64,000 nucleotides of DNA from Quercus robur (lineage: Eukaryota; Streptophyta; Magnoliopsida; Fagales; Fagaceae): positions 48,524,290-48,588,289 of the forward strand of contig NC_065541.1 of the NCBI RefSeq assembly GCF_932294415.1, written 5' to 3'. How positions within the stretch are numbered: position 1 is the stretch's first letter; the number at the start of each line of letters is the position of its first letter. Both the position numbers and the translations under genes were made by a program. Shown here piece by piece: positions 4,944 through 34,094 of the stretch. The notes under the pieces are model-generated. The model saw only the letters and a list, made by a program, of their open reading frames with translations. It ran no database searches and was not told the origin of the DNA.

Positions 4944-5155
4944 TGTCAGACAGCCGTGCGACCATCCCAACCAGCTGAAGCAAGTTGAGAACGATCCCCT
5001 ACAGTTCGGTACCTCTAACAGAGGCAACGAGGCCGTTAATCACGCTCTGATCGCACGGCCATGGTTCATCCACCAGGTTTGGGGTCCTATCTCCTTAGTG
5101 AGCAAGGATACAGAGGTACGATCCTATAGAACAGATCCTGTTCAAGTAAGGTCGT
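4944..5155 (-). ncRNA. U3 snoRNA gene, copy 1
   Basis: On the minus strand the RNA begins ACGACCTTACTTGAACAGG, followed by GATCTGTTCTATAGGATCG. These are the plant U3 5' domain and box A that base-pair with pre-18S rRNA and its leader. Downstream are a C'-like box in GGATGAAC, a box-B-like GAGCGTGATTAAC, the stem GCCGTGCG/CGCACGGC and box D GTCTGA near the 3' end. The length of about 212 nt fits plant U3. U3 guides early 18S rRNA processing in the nucleolus as part of the small-subunit processome. A T-run just downstream (about 4,927-4,935 on the minus strand) suits Pol III termination. By eye this copy differs from copy 2 at about six positions. The exact 3' end is inferred from family length. 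Confidence 0.95.
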
Positions 5156-5177
5156 GCCCTCTCAACTTAGTTTACTC

Positions 5178-5220
5178 CTAATAAACCAAAGTTCTACTTA
5201 CTATCTGGTCGATATGGGAC
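5178..5220 (-). promoter_or_regulatory. U3 promoter, copy 1: USE and TATA-like box
   Basis: The minus strand has GTCCCATATCG (5,210-5,220), one base from the plant snRNA upstream sequence element RTCCCACATCG. A TATA-like TTTATTAG (about 5,178-5,186) follows some 24 nt later and ends about 23 nt before the RNA start. Spacing of about 24 nt is the Pol III type known for plant U3 and U6; Pol II snRNA genes have about 34 nt. Confidence 0.88.
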
Positions 5221-6164
5221 AGTGTTGTTTGGTTTGAATCAAACTACTTGTTCGTGGACAAAAATACCCCCATTTCTCCGGACCAATTAGGACAGATGTA
5301 TCTGAGAGACTGAGACCCGTGGTCTGAAGCGTCTGATCCTATTTCCTATGTTAGTTAATAAAATCTTTCTTTTCAGATAAAAATAAAAATTTTCTGATCC
5401 TATTACTTTTTTTTTGAGCAATTCTGATCCTATTACTGCAACAGTAACAATAATAAGAAAAATTGGGATCAAATATGGGTCCTCAATATACTAGCTAGAG
5501 TTATAACTACCTCCCGCTATGGCTAAGCAACTATGACATACCATTTTTTTGATAATCCTATGACATACCAATTTGGGTGGTGCCCCTAACTTCATTTTTA
5601 TTAACATTTTTTTTTTTTTTAATATGTGAGTGTTCATAGAGCATCTATGTTTAGAAACTATTTTTTTTTTCCATTATTTTCTGTTTTCGAAAACAATTTT
5701 CTATTTTTGAAAGTAAAAAACTTGTTTGGCAACCTAAAATAAAAAGAAAACAAAAATTGTTCTAAAAACTCAATTTGTGAAAGAAACTGAAAACATGCAA
5801 AATGCTGTTTTCAATTTCTAATTTTTAAAATTCAATGAAAATATGCATTTAATGTAATGAATTTATCTCGTTTAATGAATTAGCATTAAAGTTCAAATCC
5901 TAGTAACAACATATTTTAGTATTTTCTATTTTTTCTTCAAAAAACTTTTTTTTTTTTTTTTTTAATTTTAACTAACCAAACATGTTTATGATTTCAAAAA
6001 TATAAGAAAATTGTTTTTTCTTTATATTCCCAAAAACAAGTTTTTGAAAATAGAAAACAAAAACTGTTACCAAACATAATCTAATTATTCTCCAAGTATG
6101 TATAGTTTTTTGTCCTATATGCTCGGCATAAATGATTTAGACTCACGATCTTAAGAATCACTTA
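5221..6164. repeat. Shared unit spacer (unit 1)
   Basis: No gene. The segments 'ctatggctaagcaactatga' (about 5,518) and 'gtttttgtcctatatgctcg' (about 6,105) recur in diverged form near 20,520 and 41,620. About 5,650-6,080 is an AT-rich block absent from the other units and is probably another small insertion, whose ends I could not fix. Confidence 0.6.
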
Positions 6165-6805
6165 GGCTACGTTTGGTTGGAGTGAAAATAGGGAGAATGA
6201 AAAATAGGGAAGAGAAAATAAGAGAGAGTTTGGGTAGAAAAGGTATTTGGTTGGAATCATTTTGGAGGAGATAAAATAGTGGGGTTTAGCTGTTTTCTCC
6301 CCAAGCCCCCCATTTTTTAGCCCCCAAATTGGAGAGAAAATGGGGAGGAGATGTGGTTGGATTAAAATGACTTATCTACCCCTTTCTTTGCTACGTTAAA
6401 ACTTTTTTTTTTTCCCTTTTTCATTTATGGGTTCTTTGGTCTCACGTTGAATTTTTTTTTTTTCCTTTTTTTTAATCATTTTTTGGATTTTTTGCTACTC
6501 ACATTTAAACTCCTCTTTTTTTTTTTTTGGTTGCTCTGTATGCAGTTGTGGTCCATACTTTGAATCATTTAGAGTTGAACCATTTTTTCTTTTTATTTTA
6601 CCTTTATAAAATATTTATATAAAAAAGTTATGTAATAGGAGTATGAGAGTAAATTTATACAAACTCTATTTTCTATCCCTCCACTTTTCTACCCTCCAAC
6701 CAAATACAAATGAGGGAAGTTAAAATATCTTCTATCTTCCCGCTTTTCCATCCTCTCTCAATTTTCTATCCTCTCACTTTTCCATCCTCCCAACCAAACA
6801 GACTC
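6165..6805. mobile_element. 641-bp PIF/Harbinger-type MITE
   Basis: The terminal inverted repeats GGCTACGTTTGGTTGG and GAGTCTGTTTGGTTGG are flanked by TTA on both sides. Unit 3 reads straight across this site near 20,925, which gives an empty-site comparison. The interior has no coding capacity. Confidence 0.85.
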
Positions 6806-7583
6806 TTAATACTTGAAAATTATTAGATACACCTCACAATTGGGTTGGGTTAATCTAGTTGAGGTCAAAACGGGTCATCCTAAATGAGTTGTAGGCAAAT
6901 TAAGTTGATTGGGTTATGGGTTGCTTTGTATTTTTTCACAAGCAAAAATCAATAATAATAAATGAACAAGAAAAATGTTAAATGTCAAAAGTAAATAAAA
7001 AAAATAGTTAAAAATAAATGTTATATAATACATAGATCTTAAACATACAATTCAATATTCTCTAATGATATTATCATCACAAAAGTTAGGTGATTTGTCT
7101 TTATAAAATATTTATATAAAAAAGTTATGTAATAGGAGTATGAGAGTAACTCTATTTTCTATCCCTCCACTTTTCTACCCTCCAACCAAATACAAATGAG
7201 GGAAGTTAAAATATCTTCTATCTCCCCGCTTTTCCATCCTCTCTCAATTTTCTATTCTCTCACTTTTCCATACTCTCAACCAAACGGACTCTTAATGCTT
7301 GAAAATTATTAGATACACCTCACAATTGGGTTGGGTTAATCTAGTTGAGGTCAAAAAGGGTCATCCTAAATGAGTTGCGGGCAAATTGAGTTGATTGGGT
7401 TATGGGTTGCTTTGTATTTTTTTCACATGCAAAAATCAATAAGAATAAATGAACAAGAAAAATGCTAAATGTCAAAAGTAAATAAAAAAAATAGTTAAAA
7501 ATAAAAGTTATATAATACATAGATCTTAAACATACAATTCAATATTCTCTAATGATATTATCATCACAAAAGTTAGGTGATTT
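6602..7583. repeat. Tandem duplication, period 497 bp
   Basis: Positions 6,602-7,098 are repeated at 7,099 to about 7,583, with the second copy lacking a few bases. Each copy includes the right end of the MITE and the spacer beyond it, so the duplication came after the MITE insertion. The copies differ at only scattered positions and look young. Confidence 0.9.
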
Positions 7584-9290
7584 GTTGTTAAGTGCCCAAA
7601 AAGGCAAAACAAAATAGTTTTGGTTTTTAAAAGATTTCTTACATTAAAAATAAATCCACAAAATCAAAAAAGATAGAAATTTTTTTTATATTAAAAATAG
7701 AACAATTAGTGCCCATAACTTTGGTGGCATTCTCGGGCTACATACAGGTTCCTTTGATTCTCATCCTCTAAGATATAGACTTTGTTCAACTTAAAAACAG
7801 TGAAAAAGATGTTAATTTACTTGCAACAGATAAGACTTACAATGCAAGAATCTTATGAGTTTTATTGCAAAAATTCGAGGTTCAAACCAATGCTTTGAAC
7901 CTTTTATCACATCAAAGGACATAAAAATGTTGTTTTGGTCTAAGCTACTTAATGCTTGCAAAATTTATATTGTAAGCTTAGTTTCTCTAAATCTTATTGC
8001 CCCATGGTCAAACTAGAAAGAAATGGTGGCTACTATTTGATTCAACATGGTCATTACCAACGGAATGATTGAGGTCATGTTACATTTACATGGTTTAGCA
8101 TTTAGAATGATTTGCTAAATTTGTTTAGTCTGATTTTTTTCTTTAAAAAAATTGTTTAAAAAAGGGGTTGGGTTGCAGGTTAGATGGGTTGGCCCAACTC
8201 AACCTAAGAGGAAAAAAAAAGGTTTGGTACGACTCAACCCGTTTTTACTCTGGGTAAAAAATTATTGGAATTAGGTTGTGTTAATAGATTTGGGTCCAAT
8301 TTTACCAGGACTACTATTAAACGAACCCTTTAGGGTTGTTTGATGATTTTAGTTTCATACCCTTCCCTTGTCATTGACAAATAGTATTAGATAAGGGTAA
8401 AATTTAGGTTTCTTAGGTGTTGTATTATAGGTTTCCCAATTAAATTCAACTATGTGGTTGTCCTTGAGAAAAATAACATTTTTTTTGGTGTCACATTAGT
8501 CAATACAACCATATGATCGAATTTAATTGGAAAACTTAAGGAATAAGACTTGAGGACCAATAACTAAATTTTGTGAGGCAAATTGCTTTTTCCCCTCCTT
8601 AAGTATAGGGTAGTTGTTATTTACTTATTTTCCCTTTCAATTTAAAAAGTGAGAATATCCTCCATTTAACTTTAACTTTTTGTCATAAGTACTTTGCCCA
8701 CTCCGTTAGTATTTTCAATCAAATTAGTGGATTTGTGTTCAAACCTACACTAAAGTAACTTTAGTACCTTCCACACGTTGTTATTATAGTTAGTATTTTC
8801 AATCACATAAGCTGATTTTTATTAAAACTCACACTAAAGTAACTTTACCTTCCACACGTTGCTATAGTTTGTGTTGTGGGGGGGGGGGGGGGGGCGGGGG
8901 GGGGGGGGGGGTGTGGAGGGGGGATTGAAAGTGTTGAATAATTTTTTATTTTTTATTTTTGAGCAGAAATACTGACATATTTCATTAAACAGAAATTAGT
9001 CATAATCGGCATCCTCCATCCACATTGAAAGAACGCTAACACGTTTAATAAAGTTGTGAGCTACAAATTGTTAAATACTTAATGGTTGCAATGCTCGAGT
9101 AGATTAAAATCATATATATTTCATAATTAAATGTTTTCATACAGTTCATTTTAGTCTAAGGTTAAGTTTGGTAACTCAACTCAAAATGCATTTTTTATAG
9201 ATTTCTAGGTATGAAAATGAATTTTGCTATTTTTGTGCTTGTTTGGTAAAATTTTGTTGGGACACAAATTGGCAGAGAGGGCTATCAGCA
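7584..9290. repeat. Shared unit spacer with MITE remnant and long G tract
   Basis: No gene. Positions 7,584-8,900 match unit 3 (about 21,230-21,463 plus 23,391-25,060) apart from later insertions. About 8,395-8,545 belongs to a MITE-like family also seen near 43,340-43,510 and 59,163-59,345. A nearly pure G tract lies at about 8,878-8,912. From 9,090 the sequence matches the starts of units 3 and 4. Confidence 0.7.
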
Positions 9291-9489
9291 ATGCCGACAT
9301 CAATTGCCATGCTAGATTCATAATCTCCCTTTGCCTCAAAAATGAGAGCCATAAGACGTCAATGATCAATCAGTTGCTTCTTCAAGGGATGCTGGTGCAG
9401 TATGTTCCCTATGGATTTCAAGAGTCTACTTACAGAAGCTCTCTACCTCGTCAAATTGCATTGCTTGAATATGGGCCTCAGCTAGGTAC
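9291..9489 (-). pseudogene. KLCR pseudogene 2a (5' part of exon 2)
   Basis: Read on the minus strand, this matches the first part of exon 2 of the intact gene (about 48,850-49,092), including the acceptor junction. It has an internal deletion of several dozen bases and added bases that break the frame. Units 3 and 4 carry the same deletion. Confidence 0.85.
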
Positions 9490-9918
9490 CTGACATTTCC
9501 AGGCAATGCAGTTATGCTACTAAACAAAGGGAGGTGTGAACTCAAAACACCACTACTACACAAAGGGAGATGTGAACTCAAACCCCAATGAATCAAAGCC
9601 CCAAAAAGAAAACTTTTAACTCTGCTTACTCACATTCAAATGACAAGAACCCAAAAACTGACATTTTAAAAGAAGGCGAACAACCACATCTCACCCCATT
9701 AAAAGTCACAATAGAGCATGACAGACATTGACAGTCCTTATTTCTTTTCATAACATCAAAACAGTCACAACAGAACATGACAGTCGTTATTTCTTTTCCT
9801 CCCAGAATAACATGAAAACACTACTTAATAATTTTATCAAACACGTTGTGTACATGCATTTTTGCATCAAATTCATAAAGCAAATAATCTGATCGAGCTT
9901 ATTAATAAAGCAATGCAT
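9490..9918. repeat. Intron-like unit spacer between KLCR pieces
   Basis: No gene. The block with 'gaacccaaaaactgacattt' and 'cgaacaaccacatctcaccc' recurs in units 3 (about 15,820) and 4 (about 33,560). It may be altered intron 1, but it does not obviously match intron 1 of the intact gene. Confidence 0.6.
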
Positions 9919-10400
9919 TTTTGCTGTTACAAACTTTTCTTCTCACACCTTGAGAATGCATTACAGTCTCATTAATAAAAACCAAAATTCTATAACATAG
10001 CAGCTCAAAAACTGAGGGCACTAAAATCTTAAAGGGGGAAGTAAGAACAAGGTTAAGATATTTGTTATCCACAATTCTCCAAGTATCTTTTTTTTGTGGG
10101 GGTGGGGTGTTGCGGGGGGAAGGGGGAATTGGGATGCCATAGCTTCGGAGTTCTCTTATTAACTAATCCACAAAACCTCTATATGTCAGGGGGCTGTTCT
10201 GCAATGCGACAATACATGCACAAATTTAACTGCGTGCAGCCAATCCCAACTGGTTCAACACCATTCCAAAGAAGGCTGATTTCTTCTCCCATTGGAATGA
10301 AGCTTAGCTATATCACTCTCAAAAGATTTCGAGTCTTGCTGTGCATCCCAATCATGTAGAACATCACACCCATCTACGCTTCTATCCCTTCAATCATGCA
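9919..10400 (-). pseudogene. KLCR pseudogene 2b (exon 3 tail, intron 2, end of exon 2)
   Basis: On the minus strand this contains the end of exon 2, joined by the same deletion as in unit 1 to a shortened intron 2, and then the start of exon 3. It lies between piece 2a and the U3 gene, so the pieces are out of gene order and rearranged. A G-rich stretch lies at about 10,097-10,127. Confidence 0.85.
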
Positions 10401-10436
10401 AATCAAATTGGCGAGAGCAAAAAGATTTTTGAAGCC

Positions 10437-10648
10437 TGTCAGACAGCCGTGCGACCATCCCAACCAGCCGAAGCCAGTTGAGAACGATCCTCTACAGTTC
10501 GGTGCCTCTAACAGAGGCAACGAGGCCGTTAATCACGCTCTGATCGCACGGCCATGGTTCATCCACCAGGTTTGGGGTCCTGTCTCCTTTGTGAGCAAGG
10601 ATACAGAGGTACGATCCTATAGAACAGATCCTGTTCAAGTAAGGTCGT
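10437..10648 (-). ncRNA. U3 snoRNA gene, copy 2
   Basis: A full-length U3 on the minus strand with the same 5' domain, box A, GGATGAAC, GAGCGTGATTAAC, closing stem and box D as copy 1. By eye it differs from copy 3 at only two positions in 212. A T-rich stretch follows box D, as expected for Pol III termination. It looks functional. Confidence 0.95.
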
Positions 10649-10671
10649 GCTCTCTCAACTTAGTTTACTCC

Positions 10672-10713
10672 TAATAAACCAAAGTTTTGGTTACTATCTT
10701 GTCGATATGGGAC
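10672..10713 (-). promoter_or_regulatory. U3 promoter, copy 2
   Basis: The USE GTCCCATATCG lies at 10,703-10,713 and the TATA-like TTTATTAG at about 10,671-10,678 on the minus strand, with the same spacing as copy 1. Confidence 0.87.
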
Positions 10714-10748
10714 AATGTTGTTTGGTTTGAATCATACAACGTTTTACA

Positions 10749-10780
<32 letters not shown>

Positions 10781-11430
10781 TTTGGTTGAAAACAACGTTT
10801 TACATATTTAGTTATATATAAATAGAGAAGCCAATCAGATTCTTTATTTACAGAGATATTCTTCGGCCTATTTAAGGGTCTCAAAGGGCTGTTCTGAAAT
10901 ATTTACACTGGTCTGAGTTTTATTTGTAAAAGGCTAAGGCCTAGTTCCCTATAAAGTTTCTATTTTATAGAAGCTTGGCTTGGTTGTATCTTTGAACAGA
11001 AAGCTATTCAATCAAGAGTTGGGACCTCTTTTCATTGTTCTGCCAATAAATCAACTTTATTTTTTTAGTAGTGTTGAGTTTGTTGTGTTTTCTGATAAAA
11101 AAATTAAATCAGTGGCCTTTTGGGCTGCATCATTTCAGGTGGTAAAAAGGAAAGAAATAGAGGTTTAAATATTAATCTGTGAACAGTGCACAGAGAAGAA
11201 GAAAAAAGAAGGAAAAAAAAGCCTAATCATTCATATATTGAGTTGACTTTAACTTGATATCTTAGTAGTTAGTATATCTTGAGGGTTTATATTGAACAAA
11301 CAGATAAATATCCAAATATGGGTGAAAAACTCTCCAGCGTGTTGGTTGCCTTTTTTAATGGTTATAATTTTTTAAATGTTTAATCATTTTCTTTATTATG
11401 ATTTATCTAATCTATTGCTATTATATTTTA
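10714..11430. other. AT-rich spacer, no gene seen
   Basis: A TA microsatellite lies at about 10,749-10,772. Nothing else is recognisable except that this should contain the left part of the decayed Harbinger element that follows. Confidence 0.4.
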
Positions 11431-13304
11431 GGTGTCATTTATATGGATTACAATGATTATATTGATAATAGTGATAATGATCATTCTTATGATGTGGAAA
11501 ATGATGAACATGATTGATGATGATTTGATCGTCAGTTGATTATGATCGTCCAGATGAAGCTGTTCCTCGCCAGATCAATCTTCTGCACCCCGTGGACGAA
11601 CGAAAGGAAGTAGTTCGCCGGCGTTGTGCCTGCAAAAAGGTCTCCGATGCCAAAGTTAGAAAGATTGACAAAGGAGAACAATGGGAGTAATTTGCTAGAG
11701 TGTTTTCTTACCCTGCCCCTTTCGGGGTTTAGCTTTTTTATATGTGTGCTTGCAGGTCCTTTCTTCTAGCCGTTGGTGGAGTCTTGATGGAGGCTTTAAT
11801 TTAGCCTAGTAACGTCTTTGCTGGGTGTTAATGATGAGCTGCCATTCCCAACAGTCTGAAGGTTGATTAATGTCTTGTAACCGCTCCGCGAAGAGTGGGA
11901 ACGAGTGTTCGGATGTTTGAGCGACGACCTTCTCTCTTTGGACGATTTTATCAAGATCGTCCCTATCTTGCCATGTATGGACGATTACCATTTTGGTCGG
12001 GCGCATCAATGATGATGAAGAATTATATGATCTTGTTGTTGCTGAATGTCATGCTGCAGTGATATATTATATGAAATATATTGATAAACAACCTTGTAAA
12101 GATTTTGAACAACCTTGTTTGACGGGTAATGAAACGAAATGTCATGAAATGTTTAGAATGAAGTCACATGTTATCTTCTAGTTGTGTAATGTTTTATAAC
12201 ATACATATGGACTTCGGCACACAAGACATATTAGACTTGAAGAGTCAGTAGGTATATGTTTGATGATACTTGGACAAAGAGCATGTAATTGGTTGGTTCA
12301 AGAAAGATTTCAACACTTTGATGAGACTATACATAGACATTTTCATAGAGTTTTGAAGCGTCTTAACATAATGTCAATGGATATTCTCAAGTCTTCTGAC
12401 TCTACATTTAGTTTAGTTCCAAGACACATATAAAAAAATCCATTATACATGCCACACTTTCAGGTATTCATTTCATACATTCTAATTTGCTTCTAATATT
12501 TGTTAGGATTATTTCCTAAGTAACTAAAATTTATGTTCTATTATAGGACTGTATTGGTGCCATTGATGGTACACATATCCAAGTTGTTGTTGGAGACGAC
12601 AAGAAAGCTCCAGATTATAATAGAAAGGATGTTTTTAATGTGATGGCAACATGTGATTTTGATTACTTTTCACATTTGTTATAGCTGGATGGGAAGGTGT
12701 AGCATATGATAAACGTATATTCTTAGATGCTATCCATTGATAATTTGTCTACTTTCCAAAACCACTATTAGGTATATATTATTTTTATATATTAAATATG
12801 TATGAAGGATATTATTTACGTACATCTTACATATATTTTTTTCTTTTACTAGGAAAATATTATTTAGTTGATATTGGATATCCCTTAAAGAAAGGATATT
12901 TGCCACCTTAAAAGGGATAGAGGTACCATCTTTTAGATTTTCAACAAGCTAGTCGAGGGAATCACATAGAAGAGAGATTTAACTATGTTCACTCATCACT
13001 TAGAAGTGCGATTGAGCAAACTTTTGGAGTGTGGAAGAATAGATGGAAAATTTTGAAGCAAATGCCATCTTATGACATTAAGGACCAAAGAAACATTATA
13101 GTTGCTACTTGTGTTTTGCATAATTTTATTAGGAAACATGATAGGGAGGATGAGGGATTCAATTGGGATGAGCATGACTTGGACAGACCAAGAAGCAATA
13201 GTAGTAGAGTAGGTAGTAACAGACAGGCAAACGTTGAAAATATACAAGATGAGGAGATAAAATTTGTTCGTGACAAGATAGCTCGGTCCATTTGTGGGTT
13301 GTGA
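11431..13304 (+). pseudogene. PIF/Harbinger transposase pseudogene (DDE_Tnp_4, HARBI1-like)
   Basis: Plus-strand pieces match a Harbinger nuclease in order. An acidic N-terminus lies at about 11,440-11,515. A segment with ECHAAVIYYMKYIDKQPCK follows at about 12,010-12,180, and one with ICLMILGQRACNWLVQERFQ at about 12,250-12,430. DCIGAIDGTHIQVVV, the first catalytic Asp region, is at about 12,547-12,590 after an intron-like gap. SAIEQTFGVWKNRWKIL and a C-terminal tail ending in SICGL run from 13,000 to 13,304. Several stops and frameshifts break it (for example after MKSHVIF and in the middle of the DDE domain), and an unrelated element is inserted at about 11,522-12,005. The element termini were not found. 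Confidence 0.85.
11522..12005. mobile_element. Probable solo LTR or LTR fragment inside the Harbinger pseudogene
   Basis: About 485 bp with a base composition unlike its surroundings interrupt the transposase between its acidic N-terminus and the next conserved segment. It contains a stretch typical of plant Gypsy LTRs (GTGCCTGCAAAAAGGTCTCC). The ends lie within GATGAT repeats, so the target duplication is ambiguous. Fossil; no coding region. Confidence 0.5.
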
Positions 13305-14959: not shown

Positions 14960-15285
14960 CATACCAAACACACAATTATGTTTTTTTACTTTTAAAAAAA
15001 TGTTATTAGAAATATGGTATCAAACACATTTTTTGCATTATGAGTACTTTAAACACGTGTTTTCACAATATTTTTTAAACCACAGTTTTCACATCATTTT
15101 GAACAATACTTAAAATCTACTACCAAACAAGCCCTTAATGTGGCTTTAAAAATAGAAAACATATATATTCACATTGTTACCAAACGCTTATTTATGGTTT
15201 TTAAAATGGTGTTTGCAAAACGCACGTTTTAAAAACGCTAGTTTTTAAAACGCACATTTTGAAAGAGCTTATCCAAACAAGCCCT
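14960..15285. mobile_element. Right ends of two Harbinger-type MITEs
   Basis: ACCAAACAAGCCC followed by TTA ends one element at about 15,135. ATCCAAACAAGCCC followed by TAA ends a second at about 15,282. The second resembles the right half of the MITE at 3,312-4,210. The matching left ends were not found. Confidence 0.55.
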
Positions 15286-15416
15286 AAGTTTGGTAACTCA
15301 ACTCAAAATGCATTTTTATAGATTTCTAGGTATGAAAATGAATTTTGCTATTTTTTGTGCTTGTTTGGTAAATTTTGTTGGGACACAAAATTGGCAGAGA
15401 GGCTATGAGCAATGCC

Positions 15417-15611
15417 GACATCAATTGCTATGCTAGATTCATAATCTCCCTTTGCCTAAAAAATGAGAGCTATAAGTCGTCAATGATCAATCAGTTGCTT
15501 CTTCGAGGGATGCTGATGCAGTATGCTCCCTATGGATTTCAAGAGTCTCCTTACAGAAGCTCTCTACCTCATCAAATTGCATTTGCTTGAACTTGGGCCT
15601 CAGCTAAGTAC
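15417..15611 (-). pseudogene. KLCR pseudogene 3 (5' part of exon 2)
   Basis: The same piece of exon 2 as in units 2 and 4, read on the minus strand and ending at the acceptor. It carries the shared internal deletion and cannot encode protein. By eye about 14 of 215 positions differ from unit 2. Confidence 0.85.
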
Positions 15612-16138
15612 CTGCCATTTCCAGGCGATGCAGTTATGCTACTAAACAAAGGGAGGCGTGAACTCAAAAGTATACAATTATCTATACACCACTACTACAC
15701 AAAGGGAGGCGTGAACTCAAAAGTATCCAATTATCTATACACCACTACCACACAAAGGGAGGCGTGAACTCAAAAGTATACAATTATCTATAGCTCTGCT
15801 AACGCATATTCAAATGACAAGAACCCAAAAACTGACATTTTAAAAGAAGGCGAACAACCACATCTCACCCCATTAAAAGTCACAACAGTGCATGACAGTC
15901 GTTATTTCTCTTCCTCCTAGAATAACATCAAAACACTGCTTAGGAATTTTATCAAACACGTTGTGTTACTTGTGTGCATGCATTTTTGCATCAAATTAGT
16001 AGAGAAAACAATCACCACATTGCAACCTAAAGCCTTAAACCAAGCAATTCAATCCAAGAAAAGAGAAGATTAAAAAAAAAAACTCAGAGAGTTTAGGGAT
16101 ATTGTGATTTGTGAAGAGAGCAAAAATATTTTGAAGCC
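15612..16138. repeat. Intron-like unit spacer with short triplicated motif
   Basis: The segment 'aaagggaggcgtgaactcaa' followed by 'aagtatacaattatctata'-type sequence occurs three times between about 15,648 and 15,790, a local tandem triplication. The rest matches the spacers of units 2 and 4. Confidence 0.7.
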
Positions 16139-16350
16139 TGTCAGACAGCCGTGCGACCATCCCAACCAGCCGAAGCCAGTTGAGAACGATCCTCTACAGT
16201 TCGGTGCCTCTAACAGAGACAACGAGGCCGTTAATCACGCTCTGATCGCACGGCCATGGTTCATCCACCAGGTTTGGGGTCCTGTCTCCTTAGTGAGCAA
16301 GGATACAGAGGTACGATCCTATAGAACAGATCCTGTTCAAGTAAGGTCGT
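16139..16350 (-). ncRNA. U3 snoRNA gene, copy 3
   Basis: Full-length U3 on the minus strand with intact 5' domain, box A, C'-like and B-like boxes, closing stem and box D. A T-run lies just after the 3' end. It is nearly identical to copy 2. Confidence 0.95.
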
Positions 16351-16371
16351 GCCCTCTTAATTTATTTTACT

Positions 16372-16415
16372 ACTAATAAGCCAAAGTTCTGGTTACTATC
16401 TTGTCGATATGGGAC
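16372..16415 (-). promoter_or_regulatory. U3 promoter, copy 3
   Basis: The USE GTCCCATATCG lies at 16,405-16,415. The TATA-like element, CTTATTAG at about 16,373-16,380, differs by one base from that of copies 1 and 2 and is slightly weaker. Confidence 0.83.
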
Positions 16416-16593
16416 AATGTTGTTTGGTTTGAATCAAACTACATGTCCGTGGACAAAAAAATCTTCTGATCCTATTCCTGCAACAATAACAACAAATTAA
16501 TTAATTAATTAATTAAGAAAAAAAAAACGGGGATTAAATATGGGTCTTCAAGAGACTACCGAGAGCCTGTTTCGTGTATTATTTTTAATAGAA

Positions 16594-21463: not shown

Positions 21464-23390
21464 TGTTGAGGGCCATTTGTAAGAGCCCAGGCAGATAGAA
21501 AGAAAGTCCAATAATAAGGGCAACAAGGAATTGACAAAATAGATAGCAAAAAACCATTAGGCCCAAGCGGCAGGAATAATGGATCACAGGCCCAACAAAT
21601 AAACAAATGAGTCTTGAAGAGGCAAGTGGGCTCAAAGAAGCCCGAAAAGAAAGAAATAGCATCCCATGGGCAGTGTATGAGGTAGAAAAGCGAGAAAGGG
21701 CCGCCGCAGGCCCAAGACAATGCAAACTAAAAGAGTAAGGGGTTTATGGCAGGCCTATGAATCCCAAGGATGAGAATAAGGTTATTGGGCCAGGGAAGCC
21801 CAATGAAATTAGTAAAAAGCCCATGGGAGTGTGGAATTAGCAAACAGGCCGGGGAAGCCCAAAGAAAGCAAACAGGCCGTGGATGCCCAAAGGAAAGCCC
21901 AAAGGGACATAGGAGCCCATAAGTAAAAGCAAAATAGTGGCCATGACAAGCCACTAAAAGAAGGAATAAACGGCTGGCCCAAAAGAGGCCCAGCAGGATT
22001 AAGTTATTACGGCAAGAATAACAGTACAACATTGTAAGAAATAAAGAAAACCAAGAGTGGGCCAAAGAAATGAAAGACCCATCATCAGACAAAGTCCAGC
22101 TCTTGAATGGAGCGGGAAAACAAAGAAAAGCCCACATAAAAGGCCAGAAAACACGGACGGAGAGTCTCCAGATTACGGCAAACGCATGAGCAGCAGGCAG
22201 ACTTTTGGACATATCTGAAAGGAAAGCACGCACAAGGCCTAGGCACCACCAGCCTATACCCAACCAATATGGGACGTGGTGGGGCCATGGGTCAGAGGTA
22301 AGAGGTAAAGGGGGTATGGTTTGGTGGTGGGGAGAGGGGAAAAGACCTATTTTGCGGCTCCTGCCCAAGCCCTTTTGGGAGGTACGTCTTGCTGGGATGA
22401 CAAACCACCCAAAAGAGGCAAGGTTAAGGGGGGAACCGTTAGGTGCATGCCTTGAGGAAAAGAGAGAGAAAGCATTTATGCTGTGGCAGGTAAGAGTGCT
22501 ACGGTGGACTGACGAATGAAACAAACCTGCCGTTGCCTGGCAAAGGTGAGACACACAGACGAACCCTTTGGTGGTCGGCAAGTACGCCTAGACTAGACAA
22601 AAGCGGTTAAGGGGCAAAGTGGCAAAACATTGGCCACGGCAGGCACTATAAAAGGGCCCTTGCCATGCCCTGAAAACAGGATCGAAAAACAGAGGGCATT
22701 CACGGAGTAAAAGAAAAACAGAGTAAAAGAAAACAAGAGAAAGAAAAGAAAAAGATAAGAGAGAAAAATAGAGGAAAGAATAGAGGAAATTGAGGAAAAA
22801 AGAGAGATAATACAATGGGCATGCACCAGTAGGTCGGTTTCCCTCTCTCCCCCTTCAAATCCTGCTCTCTTCCAAAACGTAACAAGGATTCCTTTTGGGC
22901 AATAACCATTCAAGTCTGACTCCCTCAAAGCCATTAATCCCCACGGTAGGATCTTTTCCTGGGAGATTATTTGCATTGAGAGGAGGCGTTCTCCCCTCTT
23001 TGGTTTTGCTTCAGCGGACCAAACTTAAAACTTGATTTATGCCCGTTCTTGATTAGTTCATATTATTTTCTTTCTCCTTTACTTTCTCTGTAAATGACAT
23101 TATCATGACTGTAATCATGTTTTATAAGTAGGGATTACTTGGCCATTTTTGTTAAATAGTCAGAATACTCTGTTTTGCTATTATTATTATATCTGTCTGC
23201 CGTAACTCATCTGAAACAGTTTTGCTTGCCGTAAGCCTACTCCTGGCAGACGAGGCATAGTTTGTGCACAAACTGGCCCAAGTTGAGTTAAAATTGGACC
23301 GGCCCCAACTCCCTTACTCAGAAACATTCGGGCCCATTACCGCAGGAGGCAGCCCAGCCCAACGCACAATACGCAAAAAAAGCCCCTACA
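21464..23390 (+). mobile_element. Solo LTR, 1,927 bp, target duplication AATCT
   Basis: The block starts TGTTGAGGG, ends CCCCTACA and is flanked by AATCT on both sides (21,459-21,463 and 23,391-23,395). Unit 1 reads uninterrupted across the same point at about 7,845, so this is a clean insertion with an empty-site copy in the same window. The core promoter TATAAAAG lies at 22,647-22,654 on the plus strand. The length and GC-rich sequence suggest a large Gypsy-type element. No internal region remains. Confidence 0.92.
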
Positions 23391-24702: not shown

Positions 24703-25770
24703 TTAGGGTTGATTGATGATTATAGTTTCGTACCCTTCATTAGTCATTGACAAATAGTATTAGATTGGGGTAAAATTTAGGTTTCTTAGGTATTGTATTA
24801 TAGGTTTTTCAATTAAATTCAACTAAATTTTGTGAAGCAAATTGCACTTTCCCCTCCTTAAGTATAGGGTAGTTGTTATATCCCCCTTCAGATTAAAAAG
24901 TGAGAATATCCTCTATTTAACTCTAACTTTTCTTACTAAGTATTTTATCCACTCTGTTAGTATTTTCAATCACATTAGCGGATTTGTGTTCAAACCCACA
25001 CTAAAGTAACTTCAGTACCTTCCACACGTTTTTATAGTCAGGGGGAACATTGAAATTGTAAAATACTTTAATGGTTGCAAATGATAATCCATCATAATGT
25101 TATTTTATTAAAAAAAAAATTATCAGCCCTTACGTTGCCACATTTATATTTTGGCGAATTACAATCCATCAATTTTTGTAATTGTATTATTATTTTTATG
25201 TTTAAGTACTGAATACATTTTTTTTATTAGGTTGGTGTCATCTATATATATTTATATTAATGCACAAAGTTCAAAGAAAGTCCCATTAGATTCTTAATTG
25301 AATTTTAAATTTTGTACCACGTCTCATATAAGTTTTTGAATTTTTATACTAAGTGAGTTATTGTATCAATTAAATTTTCTTAATTTTGCTATTAAACGCG
25401 AAAACCAAAAAGACTACAATAAAAACTTGGCTTAAGTACAATGCATCCAGCCATTAGGATGGCAACACATGACAATTTTTAGAGGGATAAAATGTACTTC
25501 AGATCTGTTTGAATACTGTTTATTTGGTTGGAAATTGAAAACAATAAAAAAAAAATTAAAATATTACTGTTGATTGGCCGGTACTGTTTAAGAGGCCCTG
25601 GTTCCAAAAAAAAAAAAAACGAGAGATAGAGTGGGAGAGAAGGTCCATAACGCAGAGAGAGAGAGATCTGAATTGCACCACCGTCAGGCTGGCCTTCTGT
25701 CAAAGCTCTGGTTAAGATGTAGAAACAATTGAAACTCTGGTGGTGAGAACTTCTCACTGAGAAGGGGTAT
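24703..25770. other. End of unit 3 spacer, then unassigned AT-rich sequence
   Basis: 24,703 to about 25,070 matches unit 1 at about 8,330-8,880. Beyond that I see only AT-rich sequence and an A-tract near 25,605. Confidence 0.5.
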
Positions 25771-25774
25771 TCTC

Positions 25775-26095
25775 TTTACTATAGAAACAAGTTTCACAAA
25801 AGCTATTATTGAGAGCGATTCTCTGCAGGTAGTTACAGCTCTTCAGAATCCTACAGAGAATTCATCCTTACTGGGCCATGTCAATGAAGATGCTAGGTTG
25901 GCTGCAATGTCAAGCATGAAGCAAACCACGCAGTACATATATTGGCGTGAAAGGTCTTAATACACGGTTCTTAAAACGTTTGGTTGGGGGCAACTCCCTT
26001 ATCTATTGTAGACGTTGTTCAAAAGGATTTGATGTAATTAGTTTTCAGTTTCATTTTTCAATGAAAGAAATTTCCAGTTCTCAAAAAAAAAAAAA
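25775..26095 (+). mobile_element. Probable LINE 3' end (RNase H fragment and poly-A)
   Basis: A plus-strand frame reads DSLQVVTALQNPTENSSLLGH, similar to the RNase H domain at the end of plant L1 elements. It is followed by a short non-coding stretch, a poly-A run at about 26,083 and a GAA microsatellite to about 26,131. It is too short and broken to place further. Confidence 0.45.
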
Positions 26096-26131
26096 AAGAA
26101 GAAGAAGAAGAAGAAGAAGAAGAAGAAGAAG

Positions 26132-26510
26132 ACAAGTCTAATGTCCCTCAAAATTTTATATTTATATTATGGGGCAAAGTTTGGGTCCAATGTTTGGGAT
26201 TCTATTTGTTGATTCTGTTTGTTTTTCTGTGTTGAAGCCAAATATGTTGCTGCAACAATGTCATTCTTGGATTCTAAATCATCCTCTCATGGTGGAACCA
26301 CAAAGTACAAAGCCTACCATTAAATTAGACGTGATTGTCAATGCACGCAATCAACGTTTAGACCTCATTTTGATGGAAAAAAAAATCAAAAATCAAATGT
26401 AGAATCTGAGTTGGATTTTTTTTTCTTCCTTTTTCGTAGCAAAATTACTCTATAGTAAAATTTGATTCACACGATGTTGTGTCTCTAAATGAATCTAGAA
26501 TTAGTTGCAG
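26132..26510. other. Unassigned spacer
   Basis: Open frames here show no recognisable motif. It could hold the degraded 5' part of the SOD fragment that follows. Confidence 0.35.
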
Positions 26511-26901
26511 AATTAAGGCTGTCTGGCATTATCTACTTCACCCAAGAAGGAGATGGTAACTTGAAATTGCTGTTATTTTATTAAGGAAATGTAAATTTCT
26601 ATTTTCTTATTTAAAGTGATAATTTTCATTTCAAAAACTTTCAGGCCTAGCTACAGCAACGGGAAATATTTATGGTCTTTATACCTGCACTTCATGGCTT
26701 CCATGTGCATGCTCTTGGGGATACAACAAACGGTTGCATGTCCCATTCGTATATTTCAATGAACATAATGTTTGTATCTTTCTATCTAAAGCATTTAGGG
26801 GAGAAGAGAAGTAAAGAGTCCCCACTTTGTTCCAATAAAATGCCATTTTGTCTTGTTCTAACTATCTGCTTGCAGTACCAAAATTCAATCCTGATGGCAA
26901 G
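26511..26901 (+). pseudogene. Cu/Zn superoxide dismutase pseudogene fragment, introns retained
   Basis: Three exon pieces lie in the right order. Positions 26,511-26,555 give LRLSGIIYFTQEGD and end at a donor GTAAC. Positions 26,645-26,742 give [18 protein letters not shown], the copper-site signature of cytosolic-type SOD. Positions 26,876-26,901 give FNPDGK and lie between an intact acceptor and donor. The middle exon has a +1 frameshift just before the signature, and the donor after GCMS is lost. Retained introns show this is a duplicated genomic fragment and not a processed copy. Upstream and downstream exons were not found. Confidence 0.85.
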
Positions 26902-27076
26902 GTTAGCACAATTCAATCCTAATATGCCCCATATCGGTTTGCTGAATTATAATTGCAGAGCCACTCCTTTTAGCTTTCGTAGGATGTTTCTGTTTATTTT
27001 GTTTAGATATTTTCAGACTCCAAAGTGTGATAGATATAATTGTTTCAAACAAGGGATTTGCTTCTCTAAATTCCTG

Positions 27077-27420
27077 TAGGGATGGCAATTTTTCCCCGCC
27101 CCGCTTGACCCGCCCCTCCCCGCTTCGCCCCGTGTGGGTTTTCCCCGCCCCGCAAAGGTGGTGGGGCGGGGATGGGGCGAGATTTTAGACCCACACCACG
27201 GGGCGGGGCGGGGATGGGTTTACACTTTTTAGACCCACCCCGCCCCGCCCCATCCCCGCCCCGCCTCGCATTAATAAGGGTTAAATTGTAATATTATTGT
27301 ACCCTAAAACCCTACTATTTAAACAAAAATATCATCAGCTTATTTTATTCTACCTAACGTGGCTCTACCTCTTTTTTCTCTCTAGCAAAGTTGGAAATAA
27401 GGTACCGATTTTAACTTCTT

Positions 27421-27452
<32 letters not shown>

Positions 27453-28046
27453 GTCTTTATTGGAAACAAATTTATATACTATTGAATTGATGATTTCATT
27501 CATGATTCATACGGTCTTTCTCAACTTACTTTTCATCATGAACATAATATAATTTTTTTTAATGAGTTACGGGTTTGTGGCTCTAAATATGTGTCTGTGT
27601 CATTGTTTTTGTAATTTTGTGTGGGCATTTGGCTGCTTAACAACACTTTTTCTTTAAGCTTGTTAAAATTTTATTTTATCATGTTATGAGATTTTTGTTG
27701 TGATATTGTCTTGTTAAACATTTAGATAATATTATTTAGTTTTTGCTAAAAATTAGTTTGATTTGATAGGATAAATTTATTTTTAATTTCAAGTATATTT
27801 TTATTATTGAAACATGTCATTTTATTTGAAAAAATGGTAATAGTTGTAGGGAAAATTAACAAGAAATAAAGTTTTACGGTGTAGGGCGGGGCTTCGCGGG
27901 TCTTTGCGGGGCCTTAAGGGGCGGGGATGGGGTAAGAAATTTTCCCCGTCATGCGGGGCGGGGCGGGGATGGGGCAAGAAAAATCCATACGGGGTGGGGG
28001 CGAAGATCTCATCCTTCGGCCCCGCCCCGCCCCATTGCCATCCCTA
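27077..28046. mobile_element. GC-rich hAT-type MITE, 970 bp
   Basis: The terminal inverted repeats begin TAGGGATGGCAA at both ends. They are flanked by the 8-bp duplication AATTCCTG (27,069-27,076 and 28,047-28,054), which is diagnostic of hAT elements. The subterminal parts are packed with CCCCGCCCCGC-type motifs on both sides, while the centre is AT-rich. No transposase. Confidence 0.9.
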
Positions 28047-28301
28047 AATTCCTGTACTTCTCTAAATAGTGCATTTTTAGCATGTTTGAATTGGGATTTT
28101 GTTAATTTGTTAAAAGTGTGTGTATATATAATGCTGAAGTTAATATTTTAGAATTCAAATTGAATCAAAATTAGTTTCTAATTATAGTATAATTTTGTAC
28201 CACGTGTCTAATTTAATGTTTTTTTTAAATTTTAGTGCCAAGTAATCCCCATTTGTAATTTTCCATTTCATGCATAAGCACGAGTTACATTATTTTTATT
28301 A

Positions 28302-29492
28302 TCTATATATATATATATATAAAGCACCACAATTTTCCACGTCAGCACAACACAATATTTAAAAAATAAAATTAAAAACACTATTTTTCTCTCCAAAACC
28401 CGATACTTATCTTCTTTTTTTTCTTTTTCTTTTTTTGGATAAAATCTGATATTTTAAGCTGAGTTTAATCTAAAGATTATTATTATTTTTTTTAAATCTG
28501 CAATAAAAGGATAAGTATCTGCTTTATTGCAATAAACCCAAAAACAAAGTTAACTAATTTTTTAAAAACCCTACAACCAAACTTCTTGAACCCTACGTTA
28601 TAGAATATAATTTGTTTATTTCAAAATCTTTTGATTATGCGTTAATTTATTTTTTGCTATTATATATTAGATAACAACAAAAAATTGAATATATATCACC
28701 ATATGCCACAAAGATGATTATTAAAAAAAAAAAAAATCTGCAATAAAAGGATAAGTATCAGCTTTATTGCAATAAACCCAAAAAAAAAAGTTAATTAATT
28801 TTTTAAAAACCCTACAACCAAACTTCTTGAACTTTACGTTATAGAATATAATTTTTTTATTTCAAAATCTTAGCCTCTACTGGCACCACAATTTTCCATA
28901 TCAGCACAACACAATATTTAAAAAATAAAATTAAAAACACTATTTTTTTCTCCAAAACCCGATACTTATCTTCTTTTTTTTCTTTTTCTTTTTTTGGATA
29001 AAATTTGATATTTTAAGCTGAGTTTAATCTAAAGATTATTTATTTATTTTTTTAAATCTGCAATAAAAGGATAAGTATCTGCTTTATTGCAATAAACCCA
29101 AAAACAAAGTTAACTAATTTTTTAAAAACCCTACAACCAAACTTCTTGAACCCTACGTTATAGAATATAATTTGTTTATTTCAAAATCTTTTGATTATGT
29201 GTTAATTTATTTCTTGCTATTATATATTAGATAACAACAAAAAATTAAATATATATCACCATATGCCACAAAGATGATTATTTTAAAATAAAAAAAAAAT
29301 CTGCAATAAAAGGATAAGTATCGGCTTTATTGCAATAAACCCAAAAAAAAAAAAGTTAATTAATTTTTTAAAAACCCTACAACCAAACTTCTTGAACTCT
29401 ACGTTATAGAATATAATTTTTTTATTTCAAAATCTTTTGATTATGCGTTAATTTATTTTTTGCTATTATATATTAGATAACAACAAAAAACT

Positions 29493-29549
<57 letters not shown>

Positions 29550-29866
29550 CATATGCCACACTCGTACATACCATTATGTCCTGGTGCTATTCAAACTCAT
29601 AAATTTATTTGGGACTCTAATTCTATCACTTAATTTTTTTTAAATAATATAATTTTCTATCAAATATACATACATATATATATATATATATATACACGTA
29701 TTTCTTTAATTTTATTTGTTGGCATTTTGAAAGTTTTAATATCTACATTTTTGCGTTAGTTATTGCAATATCTGAACATGTTTAGCAGATGTCAACGGTT
29801 ATACCATGAATTATATATTCTTTTAAAGATAAACTATTTTTCTCTTGTATTTCTCTATTGTGTAGT

Positions 29867-29915
<49 letters not shown>

Positions 29916-30200
29916 TTTTTTTTTTTTGTTTCAAAATTTTCTAGGCAATAAATCTTCTTATTCTTTAATATTTTTTGGCATTTCAAAAATTTTAATATCT
30001 GAAACCAATTGGTAGATTTTTCACAAGATATTACACGTTCAAACAATGACTTCTTTATCAAATCGTAATAAAAATTGAAGTGAAACAGGAGAAATTCATG
30101 AAATCGTATAGTTTCATAATCAATTTAAAATTTTATATAATTATTTTATTCTATTACACAAACAAGTAGGTTCCCGTGCATAGCACGGGTTTGCGACTAG
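28302..30200 (+). mobile_element. Non-autonomous Helitron, 1.9 kb, same family as 16,594-20,206
   Basis: It starts TCTATATATATATATATA after an A and ends with the hairpin CCCGTGC-ATA-GCACGGG, TTTGCGA and CTAG followed by T. The termini match the first Helitron, but the orientation is opposite. The interior consists of repeats: a stretch beginning 'gcaccacaattttcca' at 28,323 returns at about 28,880, and a block beginning 'ctgcaataaaaggataagta' occurs four times (about 28,498, 28,737, 29,058, 29,300). AC/AT microsatellites lie at about 29,495-29,546 and 29,868-29,915. Confidence 0.88.
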
Positions 30201-30350
30201 TTATTATTATTTTGATACCAGGCAAAGAGATAACATCACATTACAAAATTTGGAGTCTGTCTTGCTGAATTAGCAAGTTTCCTGCTTTCAGCTAATTCAA
30301 AGTCTGAAGTTCTAAAAAAAACAACTAGAGTAGAGTATTGCTTAATAACA
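30201..30350. other. Short spacer
   Basis: Nothing recognisable. Confidence 0.4.
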
Positions 30351-30884
30351 TTATATATATATCTCTTCTAATAAAGTTTCAATCCACCAAGGCCAGTGAG
30401 TCTTAGACCTCCAAAAGAGTTGGATTTCCTTACTATTAGTTAGGATCGCCACTCTTTGAAGACCCAGATGAGCTGTGTAGAGAAGCGCCTCACAGATCGC
30501 AGCAAACTTTGTTTTCTTAGGATATTGGAATGCTGTGAGAAAGGCTTTTCTGGCAAGCTGGCTTCCTTCCTTTGATTTACCTATCAAGGAAGCACCTCTT
30601 CTTCCTCTAATCAAACTTCTGGAAATTTCAACTTGACACAACAATTGCCAATCCTCTTGGTAAGGCCAGGCAGGAGTAAGATGCTAGATGTCTCCTTTTG
30701 TTGTTTGTTCTTGACTCGTAAAATTTTCAATAAAAGCAACATTGCACTTGCGAGTTAAAGCAGTTGAGATTAGCATAACCTCATTTATATTGGGTAATTT
30801 TCCTTCAAAGACGATGCCATATACACCAAAGGGTGACAAATAAGGTAGGAATGCAGTTCTTGATTCGATGTTTTGTTGGAGCAT
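30351..30884 (-). pseudogene. RNase H-like fragment (plant non-LTR type)
   Basis: On the minus strand, frames reading KFAAICEALLYTAHLGLQRV and AILTNSKEIQLFW resemble the beta-alpha part of the RVT_3-type RNase H found in plant LINEs, where the acidic residue precedes EALL and the next lies in 'TNS' (normally TDS or SDS). A second frame upstream may be the preceding part. Whether this came from a LINE or a host gene is unclear. Confidence 0.4.
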
Positions 30885-31475
30885 TTTAATATTAAATAAT
30901 CAAAATGAATAAATGTTACAACATAAATGTAAATATGTGAGAGTGAATATGGAAGATGAGGAGTTAGTGAAAATGTTTAATTCCACATTGAAAATGAGAG
31001 AGACTATTTTATTTTTTTTAATTGTGGTGATTAATGGGCTAACATGAATTGTCTCAGATATTGGGCTAGATACGTGTGCAAGAGGAAGGTGAAGGGTGGA
31101 GGTATCAGAAATGGAAATGAATTAGCCTCTTGGCAAGGACGGGTGTTCTTTCTAGTGGAGTTTTGGGCTTGAACAATTTGTGCAAAGGTTGTTCTATCCA
31201 TACGATACTTGTTGGGCTGTTGTATCTTGGGAGAGACAAGTCAGAGAAGGTCTGCATTAGTTACAAAGTTTAACCAACCAATGGCTTGAATCTCCTTAAA
31301 GAGAGCGAATGCCGCGCCTCAGTCCAAATAGTATTATGTAATTTCTTTCTTTAAATTAGTAAAATTCAGAAGTACTATTCAGTTTCTTTTTGTGTTATTT
31401 CCATTGTCATTATGTTAGCACCAACATGTTCCTTTTGGCTTCCTTGGATCCAATTACTTATCCAATCAGTTATGG
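30885..31475. other. Unassigned spacer
   Basis: No gene seen. About 31,395-31,455 is an imperfect copy of sequence found to the right of the next LTR at about 32,322 and again at about 32,682. Confidence 0.45.
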
Positions 31476-32320
31476 TGTGGTAGGGATTTTTGTTTGTTTT
31501 TAGACCTCTTAAAACCACAATCAGATTAACCTAGGTAATTAGCCAAGTGATTACTTAGTCAAATTATCAAATCTAGGTTAACACACATATATCATATTAT
31601 TGTAAAGTGCAGAAAATAAAAAACACAACAATATGATAACCTAGGAAAACCAAACCGGTAAAAAACCTGGGGAGGATTTAACCTAGCTATCCTCAAGGTA
31701 AACTGAATCCACTATGAAAGAATTGAAGTTTATACAATAGTGACTTAGACCACTAACATCCTATTACTACCTCGAATAGGAAATTTACTACCACGACCAC
31801 GTGACAGCTCTGAGTCCACGGACTACTTCTTTCTTGGATTTCCAGCAAGTACAACTGCTTGTATATCTTTAAGTTCTTGAATCTGTAACTGAATTGATCA
31901 CCAAGTTCTTGACATAGTCTTAAATCTTGGAAACCCTAAGTATGTGTGAAGGTAACCACCTCTTGATCTCACAAAAGATTCACACACACAGTATAAGGAG
32001 CAACCTAAAACATGGTTAGGGTTTTCCTTTTTATACTTAGGGCAAAACATAAAACCCTATACGTCAAACGGGCTTGGGTTGAGTTGGAAATTCTGCAGAA
32101 AAAACAATTTGCATGACTTTCGACTGATCGAGTCTAATTCTTGATCGATTGAGCCAGACAGATTTACACAATAAATCCTACAACAACTTGATTCCAACTT
32201 TACATAAAAAGCATATACTTTTAGCAAGTCTAAACAAAACTAAAACATTTTGATCATGGTTTGCCAATATTACAAAATAGGGTTCTAATATATTAGTTCC
32301 TAATTCCTTAGAACCTAACA
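31476..32320 (-). mobile_element. Solo LTR, probably Copia, 845 bp
   Basis: On the minus strand it starts TGTTAGGTTCTAAGG and ends CCCTACCACA, with a TATA-like AGTATAAAAAGG at about 32,030. No matching 5-bp duplication flanks it. Instead a roughly 60-bp imperfect repeat lies on both sides, so the locus was rearranged after or during insertion. No coding region is present. Confidence 0.7.
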
Positions 32321-32828
32321 ATTTCCATTGTCATTGTGTTAGCACCAACATGTTCCTTTTGGCTTCCTTGGATCCAGTTATTTAAGAAACAGGTGGTCTA
32401 AAGTTTCCCTATCTTCTTGACATGCTAGTTAATATATAGTAGAAAAGTGCTCATGCAATACCAGTGGATTTGCATGACTTTCGACTGATCGAGTCTAATT
32501 CTTGATTGATCGAGCCAGACAGATTTACACAATAAATCTTACAACAACTCGATTCCAACTTTACATAAAAAGCATATACTTTTAGCAAGTCTAAACAAGA
32601 CTAAAACATTTTGATCATAGTTTGCCAAAATTACAAAATAGAGTTCTAATATATTAGTTCCTAATTCCTTAGAACCTAACAATTTCCATTGTCATTGTGT
32701 TAGCACCAACATGTTCCTTTTGGCTTCCTTGGATCCAGTTATTTAAGAAACAGGCGGTCTAAAGTTTCCCTATCTTCTTGACATGCTAGTTAATATATAG
32801 TAGAAAAGTGCTCATGCAATACCAGTGG
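32107..32828. repeat. Tandem duplication, period 361 bp
   Basis: Positions 32,107-32,467 and 32,468-32,828 are near-identical. The unit joins the first 210 bp or so of the LTR (in its own sense) to about 150 bp of flank, so the duplication came after the LTR insertion. The copies differ at only a few positions. Confidence 0.9.
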
Positions 32829-33261
32829 CGACTCCAAGAATTTTATTTAGGGGTGGTCATTAAAAAAATTTAATAAAAATAAAATTTGAATATATAAACA
32901 TCACAAAATAAAAACATACGCAAATACATAAAGTTTTAAAATTTCATTTCACAAGTTTTTATATTTTGAAATCGTTGTTGATATGATAGTTTCACTATTA
33001 ATGTTATTTGCTACATTTTTTTCAACCCTGATTAACCCTTGGTGACCGCCCCTATGCAATGCACGAGTAAATTAAAATCATAAATATATATCATAATTAA
33101 TTTTTTTCAAACAACTCATTTTAGTCTAAGGTTAAGTTTGGTAACTCAACTCAAAATGCATTTTATAGATTTCTAGGTATGAAAATGAATTTTGTTATTT
33201 TTGTGCTTGTTTGGTAAATTTTGTTGGGACACAAATTGGCAGAGAGGCTATCAGCAATGCC
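32829..33261. other. Spacer and start of unit 4
   Basis: 32,829 to about 33,050 is unassigned, possibly a transposon remnant. From 33,060 the sequence matches unit 2 from about 9,090 and unit 3 from about 15,285. Confidence 0.6.
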
Positions 33262-33456
33262 GACATCAATTGCTACGCTATATTCATAATCTCCCTTTGC
33301 CTCAAAAATGAGAGCCATAAGACGTCAATGATCAATCAGTTGCTTCTTCAATGGATGCTGTGGCAGTATGCTCTCTATGGATTTCAGGAGTCTCCTTACA
33401 GAAGCTCTCTACCTCATCAAATTGCATTTGCTTGAACATGGGCCTCAGCAAAGTAC
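33262..33456 (-). pseudogene. KLCR pseudogene 4 (5' part of exon 2)
   Basis: The same exon 2 piece with the same internal deletion as units 2 and 3, on the minus strand and ending at the acceptor region. The intron-like spacer follows to about 33,870. Confidence 0.85.
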
Positions 33457-33881
33457 CTGCCATTTCCAGGCAATGCAGTTATGCTACCAAACAAAGGGAG
33501 GCGTGAACTCAAAAGTATACAATTATCTATAACTCTGCTTACGCATATTCAAATGACAAGAACCCAAAAACTGACATTTTAAAAGAAGGCGAACAACCAC
33601 ATCTCACCCCATTAAAAGTCACAACAGAGCATGACAGTCGTTATTTCTCTTCCTCCTAGAATAACATCAAAACACTGCTTAGGAATTTTATCAAACACTT
33701 TGTGTTACTTGTGTACATGCATTTTTGCATCAAATTAGTAGAGGAAACAATCACCACATTGCAACTTAAAGCCTTAAACCAAGCAATTCAATCCAAAAAA
33801 AATAGAAGATTAAAAAAAAAAAAAACTCAGACAGTTTAGGGATATTGTGATTTGTGAAGAGAGCAAAAAGATTTTGAAGCC

Positions 33882-34094
33882 TGTCAGACAGCCCGTGCGA
33901 CCATCCCAACCAGCCGAAGCCTGTTGAGAACGATCCTCTACAGTTCGGTGCCTCAAACAGAGTCAACGAGGCCGTTAATCACGCTCTGATCGCACGGCCA
34001 TGGTTCATCCACCAGGTTTGGGGTCCTGTCTCCTTAGTGAGCAAGGATACAGAGGTACGATCCTATAGAACAGATCCTGTTCAAGTAAGGTCGT
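33882..34094 (-). ncRNA. U3 snoRNA gene, copy 4 (slightly altered)
   Basis: U3 on the minus strand with an intact 5' domain and box A and box D present. It has one extra base in the 3' half of the closing stem (after GTGCG... near 33,893) and three or four substitutions. The extra base would bulge the stem. It may be a weaker or pseudogenic copy. The promoter is present. Confidence 0.9.

Follow-up and report, generated by a model that had tools for sequence, protein, structure and literature searches.

Four plant U3 snoRNA genes among KLCR-like pseudogene fragments in a 64-kb stretch of the Quercus robur genome

Four full-length plant U3 snoRNA genes (copies a to d) were identified in the 64-kb window, i.e., the whole stretch of Quercus robur DNA that was analyzed. 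With a probability of roughly 85%, they are dicot-type U3 genes driven by polymerase III, which were duplicated together with a KLCR-like pseudogene and have been kept by use and/or by gene conversion. Direct support for this reading comes from the identity of the RNA, the boxes, the promoter and terminator signals, the duplicated flanks, and the better conservation of the RNA in most of the tested pairs.

The window was scanned with Rfam at the gathering thresholds, which gave five matches: four to Plant_U3 (RF01847, cut-off 80 bits) and one to a tRNA. The U3 matches are all located on the minus strand at 4940..5155 (copy a, 216 nt, 190.6 bits), 10433..10648 (copy b, 216 nt, 194.9 bits), 16135..16350 (copy c, 216 nt, 196.7 bits), and 33878..34094 (copy d, 217 nt, 183.6 bits). 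Each covers the model positions 1–221 of 221 with E-values from 1.3e-50 to 1.5e-54 and scores over 100 bits above the gathering cut-off. Distances of 5.5, 5.7, and 17.7 kb separate consecutive genes, which places the four copies within 30 kb. A permissive Rfam scan detected no further U3 in the window, and a blastn search of the window with copy c returned, beyond the four genes, just one match of 18 nt (E 0.46). The presence of four full-length plant U3 snoRNA sequences in the window is confirmed.

An initial annotation of this DNA had placed U3 on the minus strand of the four blocks and had proposed a covariance-model match as the check, which was passed at all four loci with full-length matches. 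The best-matching family is RF01847 and not RF00012, which had been named as the plant U3 model. The predicted 5′ ends (5155, 10648, 16350, and 34094) were exact, and the predicted 3′ ends were 4 nt short in all copies. An annotation based on proteins would indeed miss such genes, but the point is trivial, because a routine Rfam scan finds them. As a whole, the interpretation as a cluster of four U3 genes is supported.

The four blocks had also been described as resembling open reading frames on the plus strand, and stop-free frames of 87, 104, 100, and 81 aa indeed span copies a, b, c, and d, respectively. On the strength of these frames the blocks could be regarded as protein-coding, but this is extremely improbable and was rejected, since no family was found in Pfam for the one frame scanned there or in NCBIfam, a prokaryote-oriented library, for any of the four. 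The frames are accounted for by the conserved RNA on the opposite strand.

The strings used for the box search were derived from the U3 copies themselves and the box positions were computed, so that independent evidence comes from the covariance model. Each of the elements which we take to be the boxes A′, A, C′, B, C, and D is present a single time in every copy, and always in this order, in line with the earlier claim that boxes A and D are in place. Box D (GTCTGA) lies at RNA positions 205–210 in copies a, b, and c and at 206–211 in copy d, which carries one inserted G at RNA position 200, 5′ of this box. Box C′ reads GGATGAA in the copies vs. UGAUGAA in the Rfam consensus, and one base of box C is changed in copy a. 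Stem pairs that are kept by copy c are broken in each of copies a, b, and d. The positions distinguishing the copies are 59, 67, 132, 140, 145, 158, 173, 174, 180, and 200 in RNA numbering.

Plant U3 and U6 genes transcribed by polymerase III have an upstream sequence element (USE) and, about three helical turns on, a TATA-like box near −30 (PMC9845283). All four U3 genes carry a USE-like element GTCCCATATCG at −65 to −55, followed after a 24-nt gap by a TATA-like box that begins at −30 and reads TTTATT in copies a, b, and d and CTTATT in copy c. The distance between the two elements is 33 bp from centre to centre, i.e., about three turns. The promoter blocks are located on the minus strand at 5156..5270 (copy a, USE at 5210–5220), 10649..10740 (copy b, USE at 10703–10713), 16351..16459 (copy c, USE at 16405–16415), and 34095..34209 (copy d, USE at 34149–34159). 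At the other end of each gene, a run of five or six T begins 9–10 nt beyond the 3′ end of the RF01847 model. In copy a it is a T6 run at 4925..4930 on the minus strand, likely a polymerase III terminator, and in copies b, c, and d it is a T5 run at 10423, 16126, and 33869, beginning 10, 9, and 9 nt beyond the end of the model, respectively. The layout of polymerase III type 3 genes, with its USE–TATA spacing and 3′ T run, is thereby found in all four copies, and the spacing of about three turns makes polymerase III the likely enzyme. The promoter had been announced as snRNA-type, which agrees with the USE and TATA-like box of all four copies, and the distance between the two elements matches the polymerase III subclass.

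Compared with the published USE consensus RTCCCACATCG, which a review places at −70 (PMC9845283), the element of the U3 genes deviates by one base, identically in all four copies, which carry ATATCG instead of ACATCG, and starts at −65. When the pattern was widened to RTCCCAYATCG and one mismatch was allowed, 8 matches were obtained in the window vs. a mean of 1.25 in 100 shuffles, none of which reached 8. Six of the matches are exact, four at the U3 genes and two in an LTR element described below, and those with one mismatch are located at 22265 on the minus strand and at 26926 on the plus strand.

The only KLCR-like copy in the window without visible breakage is a TPR gene at 48183..50294 on the minus strand, in which two exon-like stretches are open, 49698–50294 and 48183–49142. 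Its TPR content was confirmed by Pfam (TPR_12, E-values 9.3e-10 and 2e-43); the name KLCR is the one used in the initial annotation. Broken fragments of exon 2 of this gene were found by tblastn downstream of all four U3 genes and on the same strand, as had been stated in describing the U3 genes as embedded in KLCR debris. The 3′ part of the exon is represented downstream of copy a at 4478..4726 (58% identity, stops) and downstream of copy b at 10182..10394 (38% identity, stops), and the 5′ part at 9266..9500 in unit b (stop and frameshift), at 15490..15622 in unit c (frameshift), and at 33217..33467 in unit d (stop and frameshifts). The description of the array as decayed fits these fragments, which have stops or frameshifts, but not the U3 genes, which are whole in all four cases.

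Self-alignment of the units in all six pairs shows that upstream homology breaks off 92 to 115 nt before the U3 gene. Downstream, homology extends over hundreds of bases in the pair c-d and resumes in copy b after a fragment of the TPR gene. Because of this pairwise homology of the flanks, the array is read as a set of local duplications, which were probably stretched later by insertions; a DDE transposase fragment lies at 12921–13304 between units b and c. A retroposed origin of the copies was rejected, since promoter and terminator were duplicated along with the RNA.

Substitutions in the RNA and in the duplicated flank were compared using the best alignment of each of four pairs out of six, i.e., all but a-c and a-d. 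The RNA is significantly better conserved in three of these four: b-c (2/216 substitutions vs. 37/588 in the flank, p 0.0007), b-d (4/216 vs. 41/609, p 0.005), and a-b (6/216 vs. 36/415, p 0.004). It is not in c-d, the most alike pair, with 3/216 vs. 26/623 (p 0.054) or, in a second count, 3/216 vs. 28/692 (p 0.083). As the pairs share sequences, these tests are not independent of each other. Measured against the 92 bases upstream, the RNA of the six pairs gives p-values between 6e-7 and 0.052. For a-c and a-d, raw counts just downstream of the gene gave 22/119 and 20/122 differences vs. 6/216 and 8/216 in the RNA, respectively. Since conservation of the RNA in c-d does not clearly exceed that of the flank, one of these two copies could be young, with selection yet to act on it.

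Instead of selection on each copy, gene conversion or unequal exchange at U3 may account for the likeness of the copies, and we regard the chances of this as evenly balanced. Downstream of the gene, c-d is the most alike of the three comparable pairs (5/127 differences vs. 22/119 for a-c and 20/122 for a-d), while upstream it is the second most different of all six (16/92; upstream vs. downstream p 0.0018). A switch of partners within or at the gene would leave c and d alike downstream yet divergent upstream, and at the four upstream positions that are informative (−67, −52, −42, and −41), a goes with d and b with c. Against this, such sites number just four, 7 of the 16 upstream differences between c and d are changes in d alone, and the corresponding comparison for a-d is not significant (9/92 vs. 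20/122, p 0.23). Furthermore, conversion alone leaves the kept spacing, terminator, and boxes unexplained. These patterns can fairly be read as an exchange of partners or as conversion at U3, but they are suggestive only. An extension of it, which we consider improbable, would make U3 itself the recombination joint: c with a b-type and d with an a-type promoter would have been joined to a shared downstream segment, with the KLCR debris riding along and both the dosage of U3 and the variety of promoters being kept.

It is also conceivable, if rather doubtful, that only some of the copies are active, most likely c and b, and that a and d are recent or declining pseudogenes which still look whole. 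These two have the lowest scores (190.6 and 183.6 bits) and additional mismatched stem pairs, d has the inserted G near box D and seven changes of its own in the promoter between −32 and −12, and the title of a 1990 report on a tomato U3 locus names tandemly repeated pseudogenes. However, none of the four copies has lost the promoter elements, the spacing between them, the boxes, or the terminator run, and even the lowest score is more than 100 bits above the gathering score.

According to the preferred reading, that of four genuine U3 genes, polymerase III would transcribe each gene from its USE and TATA-like promoter. The transcript would begin at the A of ACGACC and end about 10 nt beyond the mature 3′ end, at the T5–T6 run. 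U3 RNA pairs with the 5′ spacer of the pre-rRNA and with 18S sequences and drives early cleavages. The RNA of about 216 nt would enter the U3 snoRNP that guides early pre-rRNA cleavage and the release of 18S, and nothing in the four copies suggests a function other than that of ordinary U3. They probably arose by local duplication of a segment with one U3 gene beside a KLCR-like pseudogene, and insertions and deletions would later have spread the units and broken the parts of the protein gene. We propose that the U3 genes were preserved intact by being in use, by gene conversion that keeps the copies alike, or by both. The use of polymerase III, the expression, the snoRNP assembly, and this order of events are what we infer.

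The two USE-pattern sites at 51805 and 52079 fall in the two LTRs of an element of 445 bp on the minus strand (52135–51691) and were rejected as small-RNA genes for this reason. The LTRs are 171 and 175 bp long, the ends are TG..CA and TG..TA, and a 5-bp target duplication (GAAAC) is present. The sequence TGGTATCAGAGC just after the first LTR is presumably a typical initiator-tRNA primer site. The LTR at 51691–51865 contains the exact published USE consensus and the other one the ATATCG form; in both, the gap from the USE to a TTTATT is exactly 24 nt, the same as at the U3 genes, and TTTT runs lie shortly downstream. On both strands of the window, the widened USE with a TATA-like hexamer 22–26 nt on occurs at just six places, the four U3 genes and the two LTRs, and TATA-like hexamers begin at about 0.7% of the window positions. 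Rfam gave four matches at the element, all far below the gathering scores (best E 1.6). By descent, the two LTRs count as one observation, and the pairing of USE and TATA-like box in them may be due to chance; an LTR element with this pair is more unusual than the U3 cluster itself. A group of miniature LTR elements named TRIMp3 (Cassandra, Ajax, and Helenus) has been proposed, whose polymerase III promoters derive from 5S rRNA or tRNA, and the terms “snRNA,” “TATA,” and “upstream sequence element” are absent from the main text of that paper (PMC10886601). An LTR element with a promoter of the U3/U6 type would, if true, be a further kind beside them, and none is named in the titles or abstract beginnings among the matches listed.

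U3 genes in multiple copies are already known, as is a tandem U3 locus, and the cluster is of an ordinary, well-known sort. Judging by its title, the 1990 report of Kiss and Solymosy is said to concern a tomato U3 locus with tandemly repeated pseudogenes. As far as this title goes, it is a local tandem arrangement of U3 in a dicot, as here, but the title names pseudogenes, whereas all four copies here look complete. The grape genes VvU3.1 and VvU3.2, which have ENSRNA identifiers, are described with a USE and a TATA-like box (PMC7917103). They share with the copies described here the RNA family, the length, this promoter type, and the first base A, and what differs from plant U3 genes such as these is the grouping of four genes into 30 kb, with KLCR-like debris attached to every one of them, and the ATATCG of the USE where the published form has ACATCG. 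In Arabidopsis, snRNA genes with USE and TATA are likewise clustered in small groups of duplicates (U1-U4, U2-U5, and tandem U2 and U5 groups), but the spacers quoted are <200 to 300 nt long, in contrast to 5.5, 5.7, and 17.7 kb between the U3 genes (PMC545797). For Euglena, multi-copy U3 genes are reported, and tandem U3 genes were sought and not found (PMC2784804). Among the matches listed from open-licence PMC papers, no title or abstract beginning describes a plant U3 cluster.

The cluster leaves the picture of U3 biology unchanged. It provides four native promoters of the kind used for the expression of guide RNAs, and it bears on the survival of an essential RNA gene in decaying, transposon-rich DNA. 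Finally, the four copies can be told apart and lend themselves to the question of how many U3 genes are really in use in a plant.

The four U3 snoRNA genes (RF01847) on the minus strand share an upstream sequence element (USE), which is followed after 24 nt by a TATA-like box. The 19 bases a short way 5′ of the USE, at about -86 to -68 relative to the U3 5′ end, are identical in all four copies (e.g., window 5223-5241), the block having been chosen post hoc, whereas 17 of the 66 positions between -66 and -1 are variable. In dicots, the sequence 5′ of the USE is described as being without importance (PMC9845283).

A dense tandem array with units of 16-18 bp is located at 38905-39914, and additional short-unit arrays are found at 40208-40793 and 42056-42303. 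The minus strand carries a tRNA-Gly (CCC) gene at 53178-53248, which was detected with Rfam (61.8 bits) and also with ARAGORN. The open frame at 53763-54764 (plus strand) matches the zf-RVT domain weakly, at 28.2 bits against a cut-off of 27.5, and is probably a retrotransposon remnant, which we infer to be of the LINE type. Matches to MIR2606 were obtained on both strands of 59160-59348 (91.5 and 87.8 bits, below the gathering score of 139.7), and this region is probably a palindromic MITE-like repeat.

Finally, the minus strand at 51691-52135 holds a TRIM-like, miniature LTR element that spans 445 bp and is flanked by a 5-bp target duplication (GAAAC). Both of its LTRs contain the USE of plant snRNA genes, one with the published consensus RTCCCACATCG and the other with the ATATCG form, which deviates by one base. 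Each USE is followed after 24 nt by TTTATT, the same arrangement as in the U3 genes of the window. The element is thus possibly a TRIM whose polymerase III promoter is of the U3/U6 type. This candidate promoter would differ from those of the TRIMs described in PMC10886601, which are of the 5S and tRNA types.
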